A stretch of 64,000 nucleotides of DNA from an uncultured Magnetospirillum sp. (GTDB lineage Bacteria > Pseudomonadota > Alphaproteobacteria > Rhodospirillales > Magnetospirillaceae): positions 1 through 64,000 of the forward strand of contig NZ_CAINTR010000201.1 in assembly GCF_903853455.1 (NCBI RefSeq), given 5' to 3'. Made by a program: the position numbers and the translations under genes. Every line of letters starts with the position of its first letter. Position 1 is the stretch's first letter. The notes beneath the pieces are model-generated. The model was not told the origin of the DNA and searched no databases. It saw only the letters and a list, made by a program, of their open reading frames with translations. Positions 13,693 to 63,962 of this stretch are shown piece after piece.

Positions 13693-14835
13693 ATGAGCAA
13701 GCAGGATTTTTACGAACTTCTCGGCGTCGAACGTGGGGCCACGGCCGACGATATCAAGAAGGCCTATCGCAAGATGGCCATGCAGTATCACCCGGACCGC
13801 AATCCCGGGAATGCGGCGGCCGAGCAGAAGTTCAAGGACATCACCGAAGCCTACGACGTGCTGAAGGACGAGCAGAAGCGCGCCGCCTATGACCGCTTCG
13901 GCCATGCCGCCTTCGAGCAGGGCGGTGGTGGCTTCGGCGGCGGCGGTGGTTTCGGCGGCGGTGGCGGCGGCTTCGCCGACATCTTCGACGAAATGTTCGG
14001 CGAATTCATGGGCGGCCGCCGGGGTCAGGCCACCGGCCGTGGCGCCGACATGCGCTACAACATGGAAATCTCGCTGGAAGACGCCTTCGCCGGCAAGGCG
14101 ACCGCCGTCAAGGTGCCGTCGTCCACGAGTTGCGAGGACTGCAAGGGCACCGGCGGCAAGGACGGCGCCCAGCCGGTGTCCTGCAATACCTGCCACGGCG
14201 CCGGCAAGGTCCGCAGCCAGCAGGGCTTCTTCACCATCGAGCGCACCTGCCCCAGCTGCCAGGGCATGGGCAAGGTCATCAAGGACCCCTGCCGCTCCTG
14301 CGGCGGAACGGGGCGCACCCGCAAGGAAAAGACCCTGTCGGTCACCATCCCGGCCGGGGTCGAGGACGGCACCCGCATCCGGCTGGCCGGCGAAGGCGAG
14401 GCCGGCATGCGCGGCGCCCCGCCGGGCGACCTCTATATCTTCCTGACCATCCAGGCCCACCGCATCTTCCAGCGCGACGGCGCCAACATCTTCTGCCGGG
14501 TGCCGATCCCCATGACCACGGCCACCCTGGGCGGCGCCATCGAAGTGCCCACCATCGACGGCAGCAAGGCCAAGGTCACCATCCCCGCCGGCACCCAAAG
14601 CGGCCACCAGTTCCGCCTGCGCGCCAAGGGCATGAGCGTGCTGCGCAGCCCGGCACGCGGCGACATGTTCATCCAGGCCATGGTCGAAACCCCGGTCAAC
14701 CTCACCAAGCGCCAGATCGAACTGCTCAAGGAATTCGACCAGAACGGCGAGGGCGAGAAGGCCAAGAACTCACCGGAAAGCCACGGCTTCTTCGCCAAGG
14801 TCAAGGAGCTGTGGGACGACCTCAAGGAGGTCTGA
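13693..14835 (+). CDS. dnaJ: Chaperone DnaJ
   Basis: J-domain with HPD, G/F-rich region, four CxxCxGxG-type zinc motifs. Confidence 0.98.
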
Positions 14836-21714: not shown

Positions 21715-21720
21715 GGCCGA

Positions 21721-21748
21721 CGAACCAATGGATTCATCCATTGGTTCG
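21721..21748. repeat. Perfect 12-bp stem hairpin CGAACCAATGGA-TTCA-TCCATTGGTTCG
   Basis: Direct reading; followed by GGAGTTGCG, as is the hairpin at 34142-34162. Confidence 0.8.
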
Positions 21749-21768
21749 GAGTTGCGGGCAAAGCCCGG

Positions 21769-21827
21769 CGCGCCCCATGGCGCGGGAGCCAAGGCGGACG
21801 GAGGTCCGCCGCCCGGCGATTGAGGGG
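21769..21827 (+). repeat. Intergenic repeat family copy A
   Basis: CGCGCC-ccat-GGCGCG + GGAGCCAA + hairpin GGCGGAC-ggag-GTCCGCC + GCCCGGCGATTGAGGG. Confidence 0.8.
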
Positions 21828-21861
21828 CGATGAGGCGAGCCTTTTCAGAGGCTCGCCGGCA

Positions 21862-30871: not shown

Positions 30872-30925
30872 GGCAATTCCCCTTATTGAATACCGGCAAG
30901 CCGATAAATCGACTTGCCTGTTGTC

Positions 30926-30983
30926 CCCTCAGGCGCCGGGCGGGACGCCTCCGCGTCCCTTGGCTTTCGCGCCATGTGGCGCG
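30926..30983 (-). repeat. Intergenic repeat family copy B
   Basis: On minus: CGCGCCAcaTGGCGCG + AAAGCCAA + GGGACGC-ggag-GCGTCCC + GCCCGGCGCCTGAGGG. Confidence 0.8.
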
Positions 30984-31088
30984 GCGGCCTTTGGCCTTGC
31001 CTCCTGGCGAATGAGACTGTCATTCGCCCGTCGGTATAAACGGCGGGTGAATCGGATGTGGGTCCGCTTTCCGCCGATTGCAAGCGTG

Positions 31089-31553: not shown

Positions 31554-31565
31554 AAAATAGATCCA

Positions 31566-32798
31566 TCAGGTGCCGGCCCGGTCCAGCGCCCGGCTCAGGT
31601 CGTCGACCAGGTCGTCGCCGTCCTCGATGCCCACCGACAGGCGCAGCATGCCCTCGCCGATGCCCATGCCCAGCTTGTCTTCTGGCGACAGGCGCTGATG
31701 GGTGGTGGTCCAGGGATGGGTGACCAGGCTTTTGGCGTCGCCCAGATTGTTGGAGATGTCGATCAGCTCAAGGGCGTCGAGCAGGCGGTAGGCCGCGTCC
31801 TTGCCGCCTTTCAGCACCACCGCCAGGATGGAGCCCCAACCCCGCATCTGCCGCGCCGCCAAGACATGCTGGGGATGGCTTTCCAGGCCGGGATAGAGGA
31901 CGCGGGCCACTTCCGGCCGGCTTTCCAGGAACCGCGCCACTTTGAGGGCGTTGGCGCAGTGGCGCTCCATGCGCAGGTCCAGCGTCTCCAGCCCCTTGAG
32001 CAGCAGCCAGGCGTTGAACGGCGACAGCGCCGGGCCGGTGTTGCGCAGATAGGGGCCGAGCACGTCCTGGCAGAAGGCCGGGTCGGCCAGCACCGCGCCG
32101 CCCAGGCAGCGTCCCTGGCCGTCGATGTGCTTGGTGGCGGAATAGACCACCACGTCGGCGCCCAGCGCCAGGGGGCTTTGCAGCATGGGGGTGGCGAAGA
32201 CGTTGTCCACCACCAGCCGGGCGCCGGCCTTGTGGGCCAGGGCCGCCACCGCCGCGATGTCGATGATCTCCAGGGTGGGATTGGCGGGGGTCTCGATGAA
32301 GACGCAGGTGGTGGGCTGGGACAAGGCCGCGGCCCAGGCGTCCAGGTCGGGACCGTCGACGAAGACCCGCTCGATGCCGAATTTGGGGCACAGCTCGTTG
32401 ATGATCCACTGACACGACCCGAACAGGGCGCGCGACGCCACGATGCGGTCGCCGGCCTTCAACTGGCACATCAGGGCGGCATGCACCGCCGCCATGCCCG
32501 AGGCGGTGGCGCGACAGGCGATGGCGGCGCCGGGGGGGACACCCTCGATCTCGGCCAGGCGCTGCTCGAAGGTGGCCACGGTGGGGTTCTTGAAGCGGGA
32601 ATAGACCATGCGGTCGAGGGTGCCGTCGAAGCTCTGCTCGGCCTCGGCGGCGCTGTCATAGACATAGCCCGAGGTCATGAACAGGGCCTCGGAGGTCTCG
32701 GAAAAGCCGGTGCGGGTCAGGCCGCCGCGCACCGCGCGGGTGCGGGGGCGCCAGGTGCGGGTGGGCTCGGCACCGGTTTTGGGGGGAGTGTCTGTCAT
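31566..32798 (-). CDS. metZ: O-succinylhomoserine sulfhydrylase
   Basis: Cys/Met metabolism PLP enzyme; YSATKHIDGQGRCLGG lysine motif. Confidence 0.93.
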   Translation of the reverse strand: MTDTPPKTGAEPTRTWRPRTRAVRGGLTRTGFSETSEALFMTSGYVYDSAAEAEQSFDGTLDRMVYSRFKNPTVATFEQRLAEIEGVPPGAAIACRATASGMAAVHAALMCQLKAGDRIVASRALFGSCQWIINELCPKFGIERVFVDGPDLDAWAAALSQPTTCVFIETPANPTLEIIDIAAVAALAHKAGARLVVDNVFATPMLQSPLALGADVVVYSATKHIDGQGRCLGGAVLADPAFCQDVLGPYLRNTGPALSPFNAWLLLKGLETLDLRMERHCANALKVARFLESRPEVARVLYPGLESHPQHVLAARQMRGWGSILAVVLKGGKDAAYRLLDALELIDISNNLGDAKSLVTHPWTTTHQRLSPEDKLGMGIGEGMLRLSVGIEDGDDLVDDLSRALDRAGT

Positions 32799-32848: not shown

Positions 32849-32865
32849 TCTCCAGGGAGCGCGCG

Positions 32866-32922
32866 AACCTCTTTAGCGGGTTGTTTAACGTGGCCGCAAT
32901 CCGGTTGGACAAATCACCACGA
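32866..32922 (-). ncRNA. SAM-II riboswitch aptamer
   Basis: CGTGGTGATTTGTCCAACCGGATTGCGGCCACGTTAAACAACCCGCTAAAGAGGTT matches the remembered SAM-II consensus; upstream of metZ. Confidence 0.9.
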
Positions 32923-33009
32923 CACGAGTCATAGCGCCGGGGAAAGCCGGGCGTCAAGACCGATGCGCGGGTCCTTGCGTTGCAGGCACGTGGGGGCTAC
33001 CTATGACTC

Positions 33010-34133: not shown

Positions 34134-34141
34134 GGTACCGA

Positions 34142-34186
34142 CGACCGAAGGGCATTCGGTCGGAGTTCGCGCCCGGCGCCTGAGGG
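34142..34186 (+). repeat. Intergenic repeat family copy C (partial)
   Basis: Hairpin CGACCGAA-gggca-TTCGGTCG + GGAGTTCGC + GCCCGGCGCCTGAGGG. Confidence 0.6.
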
Positions 34187-35100: not shown

Positions 35101-35155
35101 GATGTCCGCTTTAGCATGGCTTCGCGCCGGCCGGAACTGTATAGGAAGGCCTAGA

Positions 35156-35247
35156 GCGAGGCGAAGCCGAAGCGCGGGAGCGTTGAGCGACCCGGAGCTT
35201 TAGCGGAGGAGCCAAGGGCGCGGGCGCGCCCGCCCGGCGCTTGAGGG
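35156..35247 (+). repeat. Intergenic repeat family copy D (divergent left half)
   Basis: GGAGCCAA + GGGCGCG-gg-CGCGCCC + GCCCGGCGCTTGAGGG, ending 7 nt before the ATG at 35255. Confidence 0.7.
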
Positions 35248-35254
35248 ACCAACT

Positions 35255-35968
35255 ATGACGTCTAAACCCATCATCGGCATCACCTTGGACAGCGAGGAGC
35301 CCGGCGGCTATTCCAAGATGCCGTGGTACGCGCTGCGTCGGAACTACTGCGAGACGGTGGTAGCGGCCGGCGGCGTTCCGGTGCTGCTGCCGCACGAGCC
35401 GGAGTTGGCCTCGGCCTATCTCGACCTGATCGGCGGACTGATCGTCACCGGCGGCGCCTTCGACGTGGACCCGGCGCTGTTCGGCGCCGCCAGCCGCCAC
35501 GCCACCGTGACCCTGAAGGCGCGCCGCACCGAGTTCGAGCTGGCCATCGTCAAGGGGGCGCTGGAGCGCGACCTGCCCATTCTCGGCATCTGCGGTGGCC
35601 AGCAGTTGATGAACGTCGCCCTGGGCGGCACCCTGATCCAGCACATTCCCGACGAGGTCGGCGATTGCCTGGCCCATGAACAGCCCAATCCCCGCACCGA
35701 GCCCGGCCATGACGTCGAGGTGCTGGCGGGGTCCAAACTGGCCGCCATCGTCGGCACGGCGCGGATTGCGGTGAACTCGGCCCATCATCAGGCGGTCAAG
35801 GACGTCGCCCCCAACTGCGTGGTCGACGCCGTCGCCCCCGATGGGGTGATCGAGGGCATCGAGGACCCGACTCGGCGGTTCTGCATCGGGGTGCAGTGGC
35901 ATCCCGAATATCATATCAGCCCGGCCGATGCGGCCCTGCTGCGGGCTTTCGTGGAGGCATGCCGATGA
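35255..35968 (+). CDS. Gamma-glutamyl-gamma-aminobutyrate hydrolase family (peptidase C26)
   Basis: GICGGQQLMNVALGG nucleophile; VQWHPEY. Confidence 0.9.
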   Translation: MTSKPIIGITLDSEEPGGYSKMPWYALRRNYCETVVAAGGVPVLLPHEPELASAYLDLIGGLIVTGGAFDVDPALFGAASRHATVTLKARRTEFELAIVKGALERDLPILGICGGQQLMNVALGGTLIQHIPDEVGDCLAHEQPNPRTEPGHDVEVLAGSKLAAIVGTARIAVNSAHHQAVKDVAPNCVVDAVAPDGVIEGIEDPTRRFCIGVQWHPEYHISPADAALLRAFVEACR

Positions 35969-35994
35969 TGCGCCCGACGACTGTGGTACAAAAC

Positions 35995-36083
35995 CGGAGC
36001 GCAGCGACTAGCCCGCTGAGGGCGCGCGCCACATGGCGCGAAAGCCAAGGGATGCGGCACGCATCCCGCCCGGCGCTTGAGGG
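35995..36083 (+). repeat. Intergenic repeat family copy E (long form)
   Basis: Left block + CGCGCCAcaTGGCGCG + AAAGCCAA + GGGATGCG-gca-CGCATCCC + GCCCGGCGCTTGAGGG; 49/52 identical to copy G over the left block. Confidence 0.9.
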
Positions 36084-36092
36084 ACAAAAAAT

Positions 36093-37031
36093 ATGACCGA
36101 AGAGAAGGGCGAGCGGATCGCCAAGCGGCTGGCCCGCGCCGGTCTGTGCTCGCGCCGCGATGCCGAGCGCTGGATCGCCGCCGGCCGGGTGGTGGTCAAC
36201 GGCTCCAAGCTGGACAGCCCCGCCTGCGTGGTGACCCCCAGCGACGTGGTGGTGGTGGACGGCCAGCCGTTGGGCGAGCCGGAACGCACCCGGCTGTGGC
36301 GCTATCACAAGCCGTCCGGGCTGGTGACCACCCATCGCGACCCCGAGGGGCGGCCGACCGTGTTCGACAAGCTGCCCGAGGGCATGTCGCGGGTGGTGTC
36401 GGTGGGGCGGCTGGACCTCAACTCCGAAGGGCTGCTGCTGCTGACCAACGACGGCGAACTGGCGCGCAAGCTGGAACTGCCGTCCAACAACTGGGTGCGC
36501 CGCTACCGGGTGCGGGTCCATGGCGAGGTCAAGCCCGATGCCCTCGCCCGGCTGGAACACGGCGTCACCGTCGATGGCGTCGCCTATGGCGCCATCAATG
36601 CCACCCTCGACCGTCAGCAGGGCGCCAATGCCTGGCTCACCGTCAGCCTGCGGGAAGGCAAGAACCGTGAGATCCGCCGGGTGATGGAATTTCTCGGCTG
36701 GCCGGTGACCCGGCTGATCCGCGTCGCCTACGGCCCGTTCCAACTGGGCACCCTGGCCGAGGGCGCGGCGGAGGAGGTTCCGGGCAAGGTGATGCGCGAG
36801 CAGATGGGCGAGGGCAAGGCGGTGTTGCATGCCAAGCCCGACGCCAAGCCGGCCGGCGAGCGCGAGAAGGACCAGCGCGTCGCCGCCAAGGCCCGCAAGC
36901 ACAAGCTGGCCGACGACAAGCGCGCCGCCGAGGCCAAGAAGGCGGTGAAGCCCTATTACGCCGCCGACGGCAGCAAGACCGAAGCACCCACCAGGGCCAA
37001 ACCCCATGCGACTCGTCGCCGGACGCCATAA
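36093..37031 (+). CDS. Pseudouridine synthase (RsuA/RluB family)
   Basis: S4 domain RIAKRLARAGLCSRRDAERWI; GRLDLNSEGLLLLTNDG. Confidence 0.93.
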   Translation: MTEEKGERIAKRLARAGLCSRRDAERWIAAGRVVVNGSKLDSPACVVTPSDVVVVDGQPLGEPERTRLWRYHKPSGLVTTHRDPEGRPTVFDKLPEGMSRVVSVGRLDLNSEGLLLLTNDGELARKLELPSNNWVRRYRVRVHGEVKPDALARLEHGVTVDGVAYGAINATLDRQQGANAWLTVSLREGKNREIRRVMEFLGWPVTRLIRVAYGPFQLGTLAEGAAEEVPGKVMREQMGEGKAVLHAKPDAKPAGEREKDQRVAAKARKHKLADDKRAAEAKKAVKPYYAADGSKTEAPTRAKPHATRRRTP

Positions 37032-46313: not shown

Positions 46314-46369
46314 CCTCAGTTGCCGGCGCCCACATCCGTGGGCTTGGCTTTCGTGCCACGAGGCGCGCC
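46314..46369 (-). repeat. Intergenic repeat family copy F
   Basis: On minus: CGCGCCTCGTGGCACG + AAAGCCAA + GCCCAC-ggat-GTGGGC + GCCGGCAACTGAGG. Confidence 0.7.
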
Positions 46370-46401
46370 GGCCCTTGGCCGCAACTCCCTTCGGTCGGCT
46401 C

Positions 46402-47628
46402 TCAGTCGCCGGGGGCGGCTTGCCGCCGCACCAGACTGAAGAAGATCACCGTCGCCAGGGCGGCCAGCACCGCCATGGCCGTCGCCATGGGCCGAGCGCT
46501 GCCGTCGAACACCAGACCGCCCACCCAGCCGATCACCGCTCCGCCCGCCATCTGGGAGAAGCCGATCCCGGCCGAGGCGGCGCCGGCCATGTGGGGAAAC
46601 GGCGCGATCGCCCCGGCGGTGGCGTTGGGCATCACCAGGGCGGCGAACGAGAAGAACACCATCATCGGCACCATCACCGAGGCGACCCGGCCGACCATGC
46701 CGATGCCCGACTGGGCGATGCCCGACCAGGCCAGCCCGGCCATCACCATGCCGGCCAGGGTGCAGCCCACCAGACCGATCCCGACCATGCGCTCGATGCC
46801 GATGCGATGGGTGACGCGGGCGGCGACGAAACCGCCGACCAGATAGCCCAGCGAGGCCATGGAGAAGCCGAGGCCGAAATACTGGGGCGGCAGCCCCAGG
46901 GCGTCGATCAGCACGAAGGACGAGCTGGACAGGTAGATGAAGACGCCGCCGAAGATCACCGTCACGGTCAGGACATAGCCGACGAAGCCGCGGTGGCGCA
47001 GCAGGGCGCCGTAATTCTCCAGCATGCGGCCGGGATCAAGCGCGGTGGGGTCGGGGTGCTGGTTGGTCTCGCCCAGCAGCCGCCAGACCATGACCAGCAG
47101 AATCACCCCGAACAGGGCCAGCAGCAGGAAGTTGGAGCGCCAGCCGAACCAGATGTGGAACCAGCCGCCGATGGTGGGCGCCACCAGCGGCGCCAAGGCC
47201 ATGGCCGAGGCCATGTAGCTCATCACCTTGGCCGCCTGCTCGCGCGGGAAGATGTCGCGGACCACGGCGCGGCTGACCACGGGACCGCAGCAGGCCCCCA
47301 GCGCCTGGACGAACCGCCCGGCGATCAGCGTCTCGATGGTGGGCGCCACGACGCAGAACAGGCTGGCGGCGACATAGAGGACCACGCCGCCCATGATGAC
47401 GCGGCGACGGCCGAAACGGTCCGACAGCGGCCCGTAGCCCAACTGCATCACCGCGAAGCCGGCGACGAAGGCCGACAGTGTCATCTGGACCATGGCGGTG
47501 GTGGTCTTGAGATCGCGGGCCATGTCGGGCAGCGACGGCAGATAAAGATCGGTGCACATGGGTCCGAACGCCACCAGCAGGGTCAGCAGAACCGCCAAGG
47601 TGCGGGTGGGCGCGATGATGGGGGTCAT
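46402..47628 (-). CDS. Bcr/CflA family MFS drug-resistance transporter
   Basis: 12-TM MFS; FGPMCTDLYLPSLPDMARDL; GPLSDRFGRRRVI. Confidence 0.92.
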   Translation of the reverse strand: MTPIIAPTRTLAVLLTLLVAFGPMCTDLYLPSLPDMARDLKTTTAMVQMTLSAFVAGFAVMQLGYGPLSDRFGRRRVIMGGVVLYVAASLFCVVAPTIETLIAGRFVQALGACCGPVVSRAVVRDIFPREQAAKVMSYMASAMALAPLVAPTIGGWFHIWFGWRSNFLLLALFGVILLVMVWRLLGETNQHPDPTALDPGRMLENYGALLRHRGFVGYVLTVTVIFGGVFIYLSSSSFVLIDALGLPPQYFGLGFSMASLGYLVGGFVAARVTHRIGIERMVGIGLVGCTLAGMVMAGLAWSGIAQSGIGMVGRVASVMVPMMVFFSFAALVMPNATAGAIAPFPHMAGAASAGIGFSQMAGGAVIGWVGGLVFDGSARPMATAMAVLAALATVIFFSLVRRQAAPGD

Positions 47629-51333: not shown

Positions 51334-51418
51334 CCTCAAGCGCCGGCGCGAGCATCCGCTCGCTGGGGCTTCCGCGCCACGTGGCGCGCGCCCTCAACGG
51401 GCTAGTCGCTGCGCTCCG
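51334..51418 (-). repeat. Intergenic repeat family copy G (long form)
   Basis: On minus: left block 49/52 identical to copy E; hairpin GCGAGC-ggat-GCTCGC + GCCGGCGCTTGAGG. Confidence 0.9.
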
Positions 51419-57133: not shown

Positions 57134-57270
57134 TTTCGCTTTCCTTGATCTGGAAGTGTCTCAGCGAGAAGAAACGGCAAGGCAGCCCTGACAGCCTTGT
57201 CCGTTCAGGAAGGGGACGCTTATAGCGTGCGGCACATGCGATTGCAAGGGGAGGAGAGTCATTTCTGGTG

Positions 57271-57329
57271 CCCCTCAATCGCCGGGCGGCGGACCTCCGT
57301 CCGCCTTGGCTCTCGCCGCACGAGCAGCG
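57271..57329 (-). repeat. Intergenic repeat family copy H
   Basis: On minus: CGCTGC-tcgt-GCGGCG + GAGCCAA + GGCGGAC-ggag-GTCCGCC + GCCCGGCGATTGAGGGG. Confidence 0.75.
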
Positions 57330-57383
57330 CGGGCGCACTTGCGCCCGTGTGCGGCAGCGGCAGGATATCACAAGGCCGGGTGG

Positions 57384-62225: not shown

Positions 62226-63051
62226 GGATCGCCGCCAGTCCCTCGCGGTAGGTGGGGTATTTCAACACCACCCCCAATTCCTCCTTCATGCGCCGGTTGG
62301 CGACCCGCTTGTTGTCGGCGTAGAAGCTCAGCGCCATGGGCGACAGGCTGGCCCTGGCTTCGTCCCAGCTCAATTCGGGCGGCGGCGCGACTCCCAGCAG
62401 GCGGCAGGCCTCGGCGATCACCTCCTGGGGCGGTGCCGCGTCGTCGTCGCACAGATTGTAGACGGCGCCCGGATGAGGCCGGGCCAGCGAGGCCAGCACC
62501 GCGCCGGCGATGTCGTCCACATGGATGCGGCTGAACACTTGTCCCGGCTTGACGACGCGCTTGGCCGTGCCGGCCCGGACGGTGTCGATGGCCGAGCGGC
62601 CCGGCCCGTAGATGCCGGCCAGACGGAAGATGTGGGCCGGCAGGGCTTGCCAGGCCTGTTCGGCGGCGAGCCGGCGGCGCGAGCGGTCGAGGCTGGGGTC
62701 CGGTGGGGTGGTCTCGTCGACCCAGCCGCCGCCGTGGTCGCCATAGATGCCGGTGGTGGACAGATAGCCGACCCAGCCGGGACCTTGCGCCCGGATGGCC
62801 GCGCCCATGATGTCGAGCACCGGGTCGCCTGCCGCGTCGGGCGGCACCGAGGACAGCACCGCCGTGACGCCGTCCAGCGCCCCGGCCGGCAAGGGATGGT
62901 CGCGGTCGAAGGGCAGTGTTTCGATACCGGGCAGGTCGGGAGTTTCGCCGGAGCGGCTGGTGCCGACCACGCTCCAGCCGGCGGCCAGCAGGGCGCGGGC
63001 GATCACCCGGCCGGAAAAGCCCAGTCCGAACAGGAAGAAGCGCTTGGTCAT
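62212..63051 (-). CDS. NAD-dependent epimerase/dehydratase (YeeZ-like)
   Basis: FFLFGLGFSGRVIARAL; YLSTTGIYGDHGG. Confidence 0.85.
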   Translation of the reverse strand: MTKRFFLFGLGFSGRVIARALLAAGWSVVGTSRSGETPDLPGIETLPFDRDHPLPAGALDGVTAVLSSVPPDAAGDPVLDIMGAAIRAQGPGWVGYLSTTGIYGDHGGGWVDETTPPDPSLDRSRRRLAAEQAWQALPAHIFRLAGIYGPGRSAIDTVRAGTAKRVVKPGQVFSRIHVDDIAGAVLASLARPHPGAVYNLCDDDAAPPQEVIAEACRLLGVAPPPELSWDEARASLSPMALSFYADNKRVANRRMKEELGVVLKYPTYREGLAAILSGA

Positions 63052-63074
63052 GCCATCCTCTCCGGTCTGATGAA

Positions 63075-63245
63075 TAACCCTCTCCCTCCAGGGAGAGGGT
63101 GGCCGTAGGCCGGGTGAGGGGCCGCGCGCGTCGGCGCGCCATGTGACTGGGTTACCGCCTGAACCGTTATTGTCCGCGCTACCGCGCGTAATGCCCCTCA
63201 CCCCTCGCTTCGCTCGCCCCTCTCCCTGGAGGGCGAGGGGGCGTG
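63075..63245. repeat. Head-to-head pair of CCCTCTCCCTCCAGGGAGAGGG-type palindromic repeats
   Basis: CCCTCTCCCTCCAGGGAGAGGGTGGCC...GGGTGAGGGG, then inverted CCCCTCACCCC...CCCCTCTCCCTGGAGGG. Confidence 0.8.
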
Positions 63246-63251
63246 AGAGGA

Positions 63252-63962
63252 TCACCCGGCCTTGGCGGGACGCCCGGCCTGGGGAGCTTCGGGGTCGCGC
63301 AGCACATAGCCGCGCCCCCACACCGTCTCGATGTAGGATTCGCCGCCGGTGGCGGTGGACAGCTTCTTGCGGAGCTTGCAGATGAAGACGTCGATGATCT
63401 TCAGTTCAGGCTCGTCGATGCCGCCATAGAGGTGGTTGAGGAACTGCTCCTTGGTCAGGGTCTGGCCCTTGCGCAAGGATAGCAGTTCCAGGATGCCGTA
63501 TTCCTTGGCGGTCAGGTGCAGCGGATCGCCGGAGACCGCGACGGTGCGGGCGTCCAGGTTGACCGCCAGCTTTCCGGTCTCGATCACCGACTGGGCATGG
63601 CCCTTGGAGCGCCGCACGATGGCCTGGATGCGGGCCACCAGCTCGCCCTTGTCGAACGGCTTGGTCAGGTAGTCGTCGGCCCCCGATCCCAGGCCCTTGA
63701 TCTTCTTGTCCGGCTCGGTCAGGCCCGACAGGATCAGCACCGGCGTCTCGATGCGGGCGGCGCGCAACCGGCGCAGCACCTCGTAACCGTCCATGTCGGG
63801 CAGCATCAGGTCGAGCAGGATGATGTCGTAATCATAGAGCTTGCCGATCTCGAGACCGTCCTCGCCGAGCGCGGTCGTGTCCACCACCATGCCCTCTGCC
63901 TTGAGCATGGCTTCGATGACTTTCGACATCATTGGATCGTCTTCGACCACCAGAACGCGCAT
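63252..63962 (-). CDS. ctrA: Cell-cycle response regulator CtrA
   Basis: [30 protein letters not shown]...[19 protein letters not shown]; winged-helix C-terminus. Confidence 0.95.

Follow-up and report, generated by a model that had tools for sequence, protein, structure and literature searches.

Hairpin chains in an uncultured Magnetospirillum probably belong to a modular family of mobile palindromic repeats of Alphaproteobacteria, apparently undescribed

Among the described repeats that come closest to the elements considered here, the RIME (Rhizobium-specific intergenic mosaic elements) are alphaproteobacterial intergenic mosaic repeats with palindromes, and the pneumococcal BOX elements are modular repeats made of interchangeable structured subunits. 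The CGTC-REPs, one of the REP/BIME superfamilies, are typical of Alphaproteobacteria and have no known transposase (Di Nocera et al. 2013, PMC3733652); they are defined by a CGTC tag, an 8-9 bp stem that starts with AT, and the tail CCA (PMC3733652). Rickettsia palindromic elements (RPE) are also alphaproteobacterial, similar in size to the present element, and tolerate translation (review PMC10969869). Finally, the Caulobacter CIR are, in the account of Chen and Shapiro (2003) as cited in PMC10969869, long intergenic repeats tied to CcrM GANTC sites.

Here we describe repeats in a 64,000-nt stretch of an uncultured Magnetospirillum genome (contig NZ_CAINTR010000201.1; hereafter the window), which probably represent an apparently undescribed family of mobile alphaproteobacterial repeats, palindromic and modular, each built as a mosaic chain of hairpins. 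All eight copies (A-H) located by a first-pass annotation are present in the window, each of them read directly (Table 1). The build ascribed to them, with a box, a central hairpin and a tail, is found in seven, where the box is spelled AGCCAA or AGCCCC; copy C had been misread in this respect, as it consists of an outer hairpin joined to the tail only. The central arms are as proposed in the other copies, except that those of D were given as 7 bp, which would leave a 2-nt loop; they form 6 bp around a loop of 4 nt. The places of the copies proved right, but several extents had been understated, among them those of copy A, which ends with another hairpin, and of copy B.

Table 1. Repeat copies and associated features in the window.
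Feature	Position	Strand	Content and comparison
Copy A	21717..21859	+	Hairpin 1 (21717-21751), hairpins 2 and 3, then AGCCAAG box
Copy A, continued	from 21787	+	Box, hairpin 4 GGCGGAC-GGAG-GTCCGCC, tail; trailing hairpin 5 at 21834-21859; not in relative G011
Copy B, full length	30890..31037	-	5' end ATACCGAC, 3' end CCGGTAT, hairpins 1-5; not in G011
Copy B, hairpin 4		-	GGGACGC-GGAG-GCGTCCC
Copy C	34140..34186	+	Hairpin 1 (GACCGAA/TTCGGTC) fused with tail CCCGGCGCCTGAGGG; neither AGCCAAG box nor hairpin 4
Copy D	35154..35247	+	Operon-class 5' module, AGCCAAG, hairpin 4 GGGCGC-GGGC-GCGCCC, tail; gene start just downstream
Copy E	35995..36083	+	Module GGAGCGCAGCGACTAGCCCGCTGAGGGC, hairpin 3 CGCGCC-ACAT-GGCGCG, AAAGCCAAG, hairpin 4 GGGATGCG-GCA-CGCATCCC, tail GCCCGGCGCTTGAGGG
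Predicted in-phase micro-ORF through copy E	35965..36096	+	43 codons; begins within the ATGA that stops the upstream gene, ends within the ATGA that starts the downstream one
Copy F	46314..46413	-	First tail (46397-46413), hairpins 1, 2 and 3, AGCCAAG, hairpin 4 GCCCAC-GGAT-GTGGGC, tail
Copy G	51334..51418	-	5' module like that of E, hairpin 3, hairpin 4 GCGAGC-GGAT-GCTCGC, tail; not in G011
Copy H	57267..57348	-	5' hairpin ACGGGCGCAAGTGCGCCCG, hairpin 3, AGCCAAG, hairpin 4 GGCGGAC-GGAG-GTCCGCC, tail; not in G011
Peptidase C26 / glutamine amidotransferase gene	35255..35968	+	Between D and E; anchor for orthologous sites
S4-domain RNA pseudouridine synthase gene	36093..37031	+	Downstream of E; in G008, the element lies in frame within the gene
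SAM-II (SAM_alpha) riboswitch	32852-32930	-	68.9 bits; upstream of a reverse-strand gene called at 31565-32732
Further insert	63038-63256		Missing in G011; holds an unrelated long inverted repeat (CCCTCTCCCTCCAGGGAGAGGG ... CCCTCTCCCTGGAGGGCGAGGG)

Up to five hairpins (hp), strung together by fixed linkers, make up the element: hp1 - hp2 - hp3 - AAAGCCAAG - hp4 - GCCCGGCGNYTGAGGGRCA - hp5. Complete copies (L152, L167, L171 and copy B of the window) read ATACC-hp1-hp2-hp3-AAAGCCAAG-hp4-GCCCGGCGNYTGAGGG-hp5-GGTAT, and ATACC...GGTAT ends, as in a terminal inverted repeat, are seen in this minority of full-length copies; in the genome of the window, most copies extend no further than the tail. A second class, the operon class, begins with ATGAGCGAG and differs in its 5' module. 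Tails frequently bound a unit on either side and also occur without the hairpin 4 core (e.g. at site E of relative G001). The arm type is independent of the hairpin 3 type (p 0.33) as well as of the tail variant (p 0.23), from which it follows that the modules recombine. Many copies (L031, L043, L060, L072 and others) additionally carry a guest insertion, CCGCCGGCTTCGCCGGCAGAN(13-17)GCRCGCCTGCGCGTGC, within the loop of hairpin 2 or 3.

The 5.18-Mb genome holds 133 occurrences of the core, AGCCAAG-hairpin-(GC)CCGGCGNYTGAGG (71 + 62 for the pattern AGCCAAGN{10,30}CCGGCGNYTGAGG), and 0 of a reversed control pattern; measured against this control, the two-box pattern lies far beyond chance expectation and tells copies and controls apart without error. 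The strict pattern is present in 38 of the 60 nearest relatives, with 1 to 102 copies and with favoured arms that differ from genome to genome; Phaeospirillum, Paramagnetospirillum and Magnetospirillum are the named neighbours. In a draw of alphaproteobacterial genomes, 30 of 385 carry the core, many families being represented, and the linkers are identical across the class while the arms differ. All ten matching genomes in a draw of 399 from the phylum are Alphaproteobacteria, and the core was found in none of about 260 other Pseudomonadota examined. We also considered and rejected a plasmid or phage origin: copy E with its flanks found no match among phages or plasmids, and only replicons of Niveispirillum, which carry similar sequence, match a copy from another genome. 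A copy from another family (L177) had no blastn match among 72,556 plasmids.

The element appears to be mobile, as five of the eight window copies are missing from G011. One contig of this relative aligns with the window at about 84-92% identity; the alignment is interrupted at A, B, F, G and H, positions at which G011 holds hardly any sequence or none. At copy F, the site in G011 is cleanly empty, and the insertion is bordered on both sides by a 13-bp near-direct repeat (GGCTTCCCGCCGC / GGCTTGCCGCCGC); a consistent target-site duplication was not found, F alone showing one against an empty site. The site of copy D is common to G011, there without box and hairpin 4, and is empty in G001 and G002. 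Tracing the gene between D and E into 55 genomes of the family showed a different site E in the window's own genome and in each of four others, of which G001 has the tail only, G002 an operon-class copy, G011 two copies in tandem and G008 a copy placed in frame within the downstream gene; most remaining genomes have a bare stop/start overlap there. In G012, a tail alone lies in frame within a protein gene. The analysis tied neither a transposase nor a reverse transcriptase to the element. Y1_Tnp (PF01797) has no match in the window's own genome and is also missing from G001, G011, G021, G034, G040 and G032, which hold 32-102 copies each. Separately, the window and contig C23 of G011 differ by a large inversion or rearrangement with breakpoints near 14835/14922 and 30205/30223, the first of which bears a small hairpin-bearing sequence.

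How does this element compare with the described families? None was recognised in the first-pass annotation, and the searches agree: no Rfam family matches the window at gathering score or the surroundings of copies B-E at E<=1, and those defining features of GTAG-REP and CGTC-REP that were examined are absent. Like the GTAG and CGTC superfamilies of REP/BIME (PMC3733652), the element is short, palindromic, intergenic and of high copy number, has variable stems, forms dimer-like arrays and is rare at divergent promoters. In contrast to them, it lacks a GTAG or CGTC tag next to its core hairpin, stems starting with AT and a CCA tail; it has fixed linkers and up to five hairpins, and many of its carrier genomes are without Y1 transposase genes. 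A GTAG-REP/RAYT origin was rejected because Y1_Tnp is missing from the window's own genome and several high-copy genomes, and because the core hairpin of the copies inspected is bordered by AGCCAAG and GCCCGGCG rather than by an unpaired GTAG tag. CGTC-REP was rejected as well, since the stems of hairpin 4 start with G-C after CCAA and are followed by the tail GCCCGGCGNYTGAGGG, at variance with the rules for tag, stem and tail. At locus L173, a CGTC-REP-like repeat (GAGATCCCGGCCTTCGCCGGGATGACG) lies beside the element, ahead of its first copy, so both kinds may occur together.

The remaining families were considered by their descriptions. The element resembles RPE in its in-frame occurrence inside a gene in G008, but RPEs fuse into proteins, whereas the present element mostly forms separate predicted micro-ORFs between operon genes. 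It resembles RIME1 and RIME2 as an alphaproteobacterial, intergenic, mosaic palindromic repeat, and pneumococcal BOX in its modular, interchangeable subunits, although BOX comes from a different phylum. With the Caulobacter CIR, in so far as the cited account describes them, it shares being an intergenic repeat in Alphaproteobacteria; a CcrM-linked CIR was rejected, given 0 GANTC in 147 cores and a flank density near background. Overall, the element works like a REP/MITE and, like RPE, tolerates translation. Literature searches, in which subscription journals are poorly covered, found no description of the repeat; an earlier one may exist.

Throughout the family, the flanks are nearly invariant and the hairpin arms hypervariable. 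Nevertheless the arms pair: 138 of 171 distinct hairpins from the window's own and related genomes do so fully, against 24.6 ± 4.1 when 3' halves were swapped among copies of equal length (maximum 39 in 200 shuffles), where the relatedness of the copies means that these pairing counts are not independent events. In 56 distinct sequences of equal length, pairing extends to 96.7% of the stem cells, compared with 66.1% after shuffling, and the respective covariation scores are 0.688 and 0.161, the former being reached by 0 of 500 shuffles; pairing falls to 29-60% if the partner is slid by 1-3 columns. The middle four stem pairs switch between C-G and G-C in near-equal numbers, in genomes of many families. 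Other hairpins behave alike, with hairpin 3 paired in 47 of 88 cases (11.9 shuffled) and hairpin 1 in 24 of 48 (9.5 shuffled). The compensatory change seen by the first-pass annotation is thus genuine, and holds genome-wide and class-wide; what that reading overlooked were the mobility, the modularity, the presence of more than one hairpin, the ties to gene boundaries and the translational phase in operons.

Its proposal that the element is a structured RNA or a DNA cruciform survives in part, through the covariation. An RNA helix is expected to accept G.U and to reject A.C. In 175 distinct hairpins, 1045 of 1118 stem pairs are Watson-Crick, and the departures comprise 16 G.T, 12 A.C, 26 G.A and 6 T.C; G.T is not clearly above A.C, so these counts do not establish selection at the RNA level. 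The excess of G.A, together with a G at the first loop position in 154 of the 175, sets one strand apart, a result that speaks against a cruciform of full symmetry. The reading we favour is that a single strand, of DNA or RNA, would fold. A recurrent, class-wide variant of hairpin 4 pairs only with tandem G.A mismatches (e.g. GCGAGC-GGA-GCGAGC and GGGAGC-GGAC-GCGACC).

The surroundings of the element were analysed in 60 genome stretches and the window, with our own gene calls, made by codon usage. Among 107 distinct copies, 40 lie in tandem sense, 23 in tandem antisense, 23 in convergent and 10 in divergent contexts, the rest being in called genes or at stretch ends; most are intergenic, and divergent sites account for 10 of 96. 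In 22 of 50 sense copies, a start codon, mostly ATGA, follows 8-11 nt past the tail TGAGG, across a shared spacer that resembles GRCAWAAACA; judged by this spacing, the GAGG of the tail is rightly placed for acting as a putative Shine-Dalgarno sequence. In 47 of the 97 downstream neighbours listed, the copy faces the end of an opposing gene, and in most of these 47 the stop codon is within about 23 nt of the tail.

At the loci of the window's own genome, 23 sense copies have both an ATGA 6-12 nt past the tail and an upstream stop/start junction, and a predicted micro-ORF joins the two in 22 of them, which span at least a dozen different spacings, though many of these copies share ancestry and the 22 are not independent events. 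Two of them, L040 and L068, use another frame of the same DNA, with the predicted coupling kept. In a control of 23 copies with the upstream junction but without ATGA past the tail, the core is open in any phase in 8 and closed in 15. From the predicted frames, 22 of 23 versus 8 of 23 supports selection for uninterrupted translation across inserts in operons. Junctions in distant genomes are joined in phase in only three of eight cases, one of the three being the own locus again, so the adaptation to operons may be specific to the window's own genome or genus. At L052, a 45-nt insert leaves the micro-ORF frame intact.

Tentatively, and with somewhat less than even confidence, we propose an unnamed, class-wide alphaproteobacterial element that is read by the fold of its hairpin chain and its linkers and that, bringing its own ribosome-binding tail and open frame, inserts without uncoupling coupled genes. 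Within the reading as a family of mobile repeats, which we consider more likely than not, the mobilising machinery, for which a Y1/RAYT transposase of the genome itself does not come into question, would recognise the linkers and the folding ability of one strand, and the letters of the stems may drift or be exchanged provided that they still pair. Gene-breaking insertions would mostly be lost, leaving survivors in intergenic gaps. In a sense copy between translationally coupled genes, the next ATG follows the tail TGAGGG at the spacing of a Shine-Dalgarno sequence, and a predicted open frame that links the stop/start upstream with the ATGA downstream takes in the hairpins; ribosomes could thereby cross the structured insert and start anew on the gene that follows. 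Copies in which the structured part stayed untranslated would break the coupling of the operon and be lost.

Much of the evidence is shared with a plainer account, to which we give an even chance: a selfish element of the REP/MITE type without any host role, in which phase and Shine-Dalgarno placement reflect the loss of harmful insertions. Insertion polymorphism, the spotty distribution (30/385), the intergenic location and the scarcity of divergent sites (10/96) all fit, and the account is compatible with the reading as a family of mobile repeats, the sole difference being a benefit to the host. Nothing decisive speaks against it, though conservation of the tail as a putative ribosome-binding site could mean domestication. 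We regard as unlikely a structured RNA, be it a 5'-UTR regulator or a small RNA, whose fold rather than stem sequence is conserved and which was duplicated later. It would account for the covariation, the G-rich GNA/GNRA-like loops, the G.A mismatches on one strand and the tails near start codons; yet a typical RNA family would show an excess of G.T over A.C in its stems, a cis-regulator would not usually face opposing gene ends in 47 of 97 listed cases, and the fast gain of copies, the diverse neighbour genes and the empty Rfam search tell against it too.

The pairing itself may have an origin other than selection. If template switching or conversion between the arms restored perfect palindromes, arms would need no selection to pair, and the few stem departures, the lack of wobble bias and the perfect arms of most copies are what one would expect; but such a process leaves unexplained the fixed linkers, the purine-rich loops, the tandem G.A on one strand and the free combination of whole hairpins, and we consider it improbable. 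Very improbable, in our estimate, is that the copies are small protein-coding cassettes with the peptide as their function: peptides such as MSEAKPKRGSVERPGAQRRSQGAARPRPALEGLEQ recur in operon copies, but L040 and L068 use a different frame, the Pfam search was empty, and copies in other contexts are mostly closed (15/23). The frame difference and the empty Pfam search also led us to reject a coding repeat as such.

Many bacterial palindromic repeats have no known transposase, and the present family makes the question testable: its stems, well over a hundred different ones within a constant sequence setting, form a natural series for distinguishing whether a mobility machinery reads a DNA or an RNA fold. 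Relatives of cultured magnetospirilla carry the family in abundance and with recent activity, and its phase-preserving micro-ORFs would show how insertions can remodel operons while leaving translational coupling intact.
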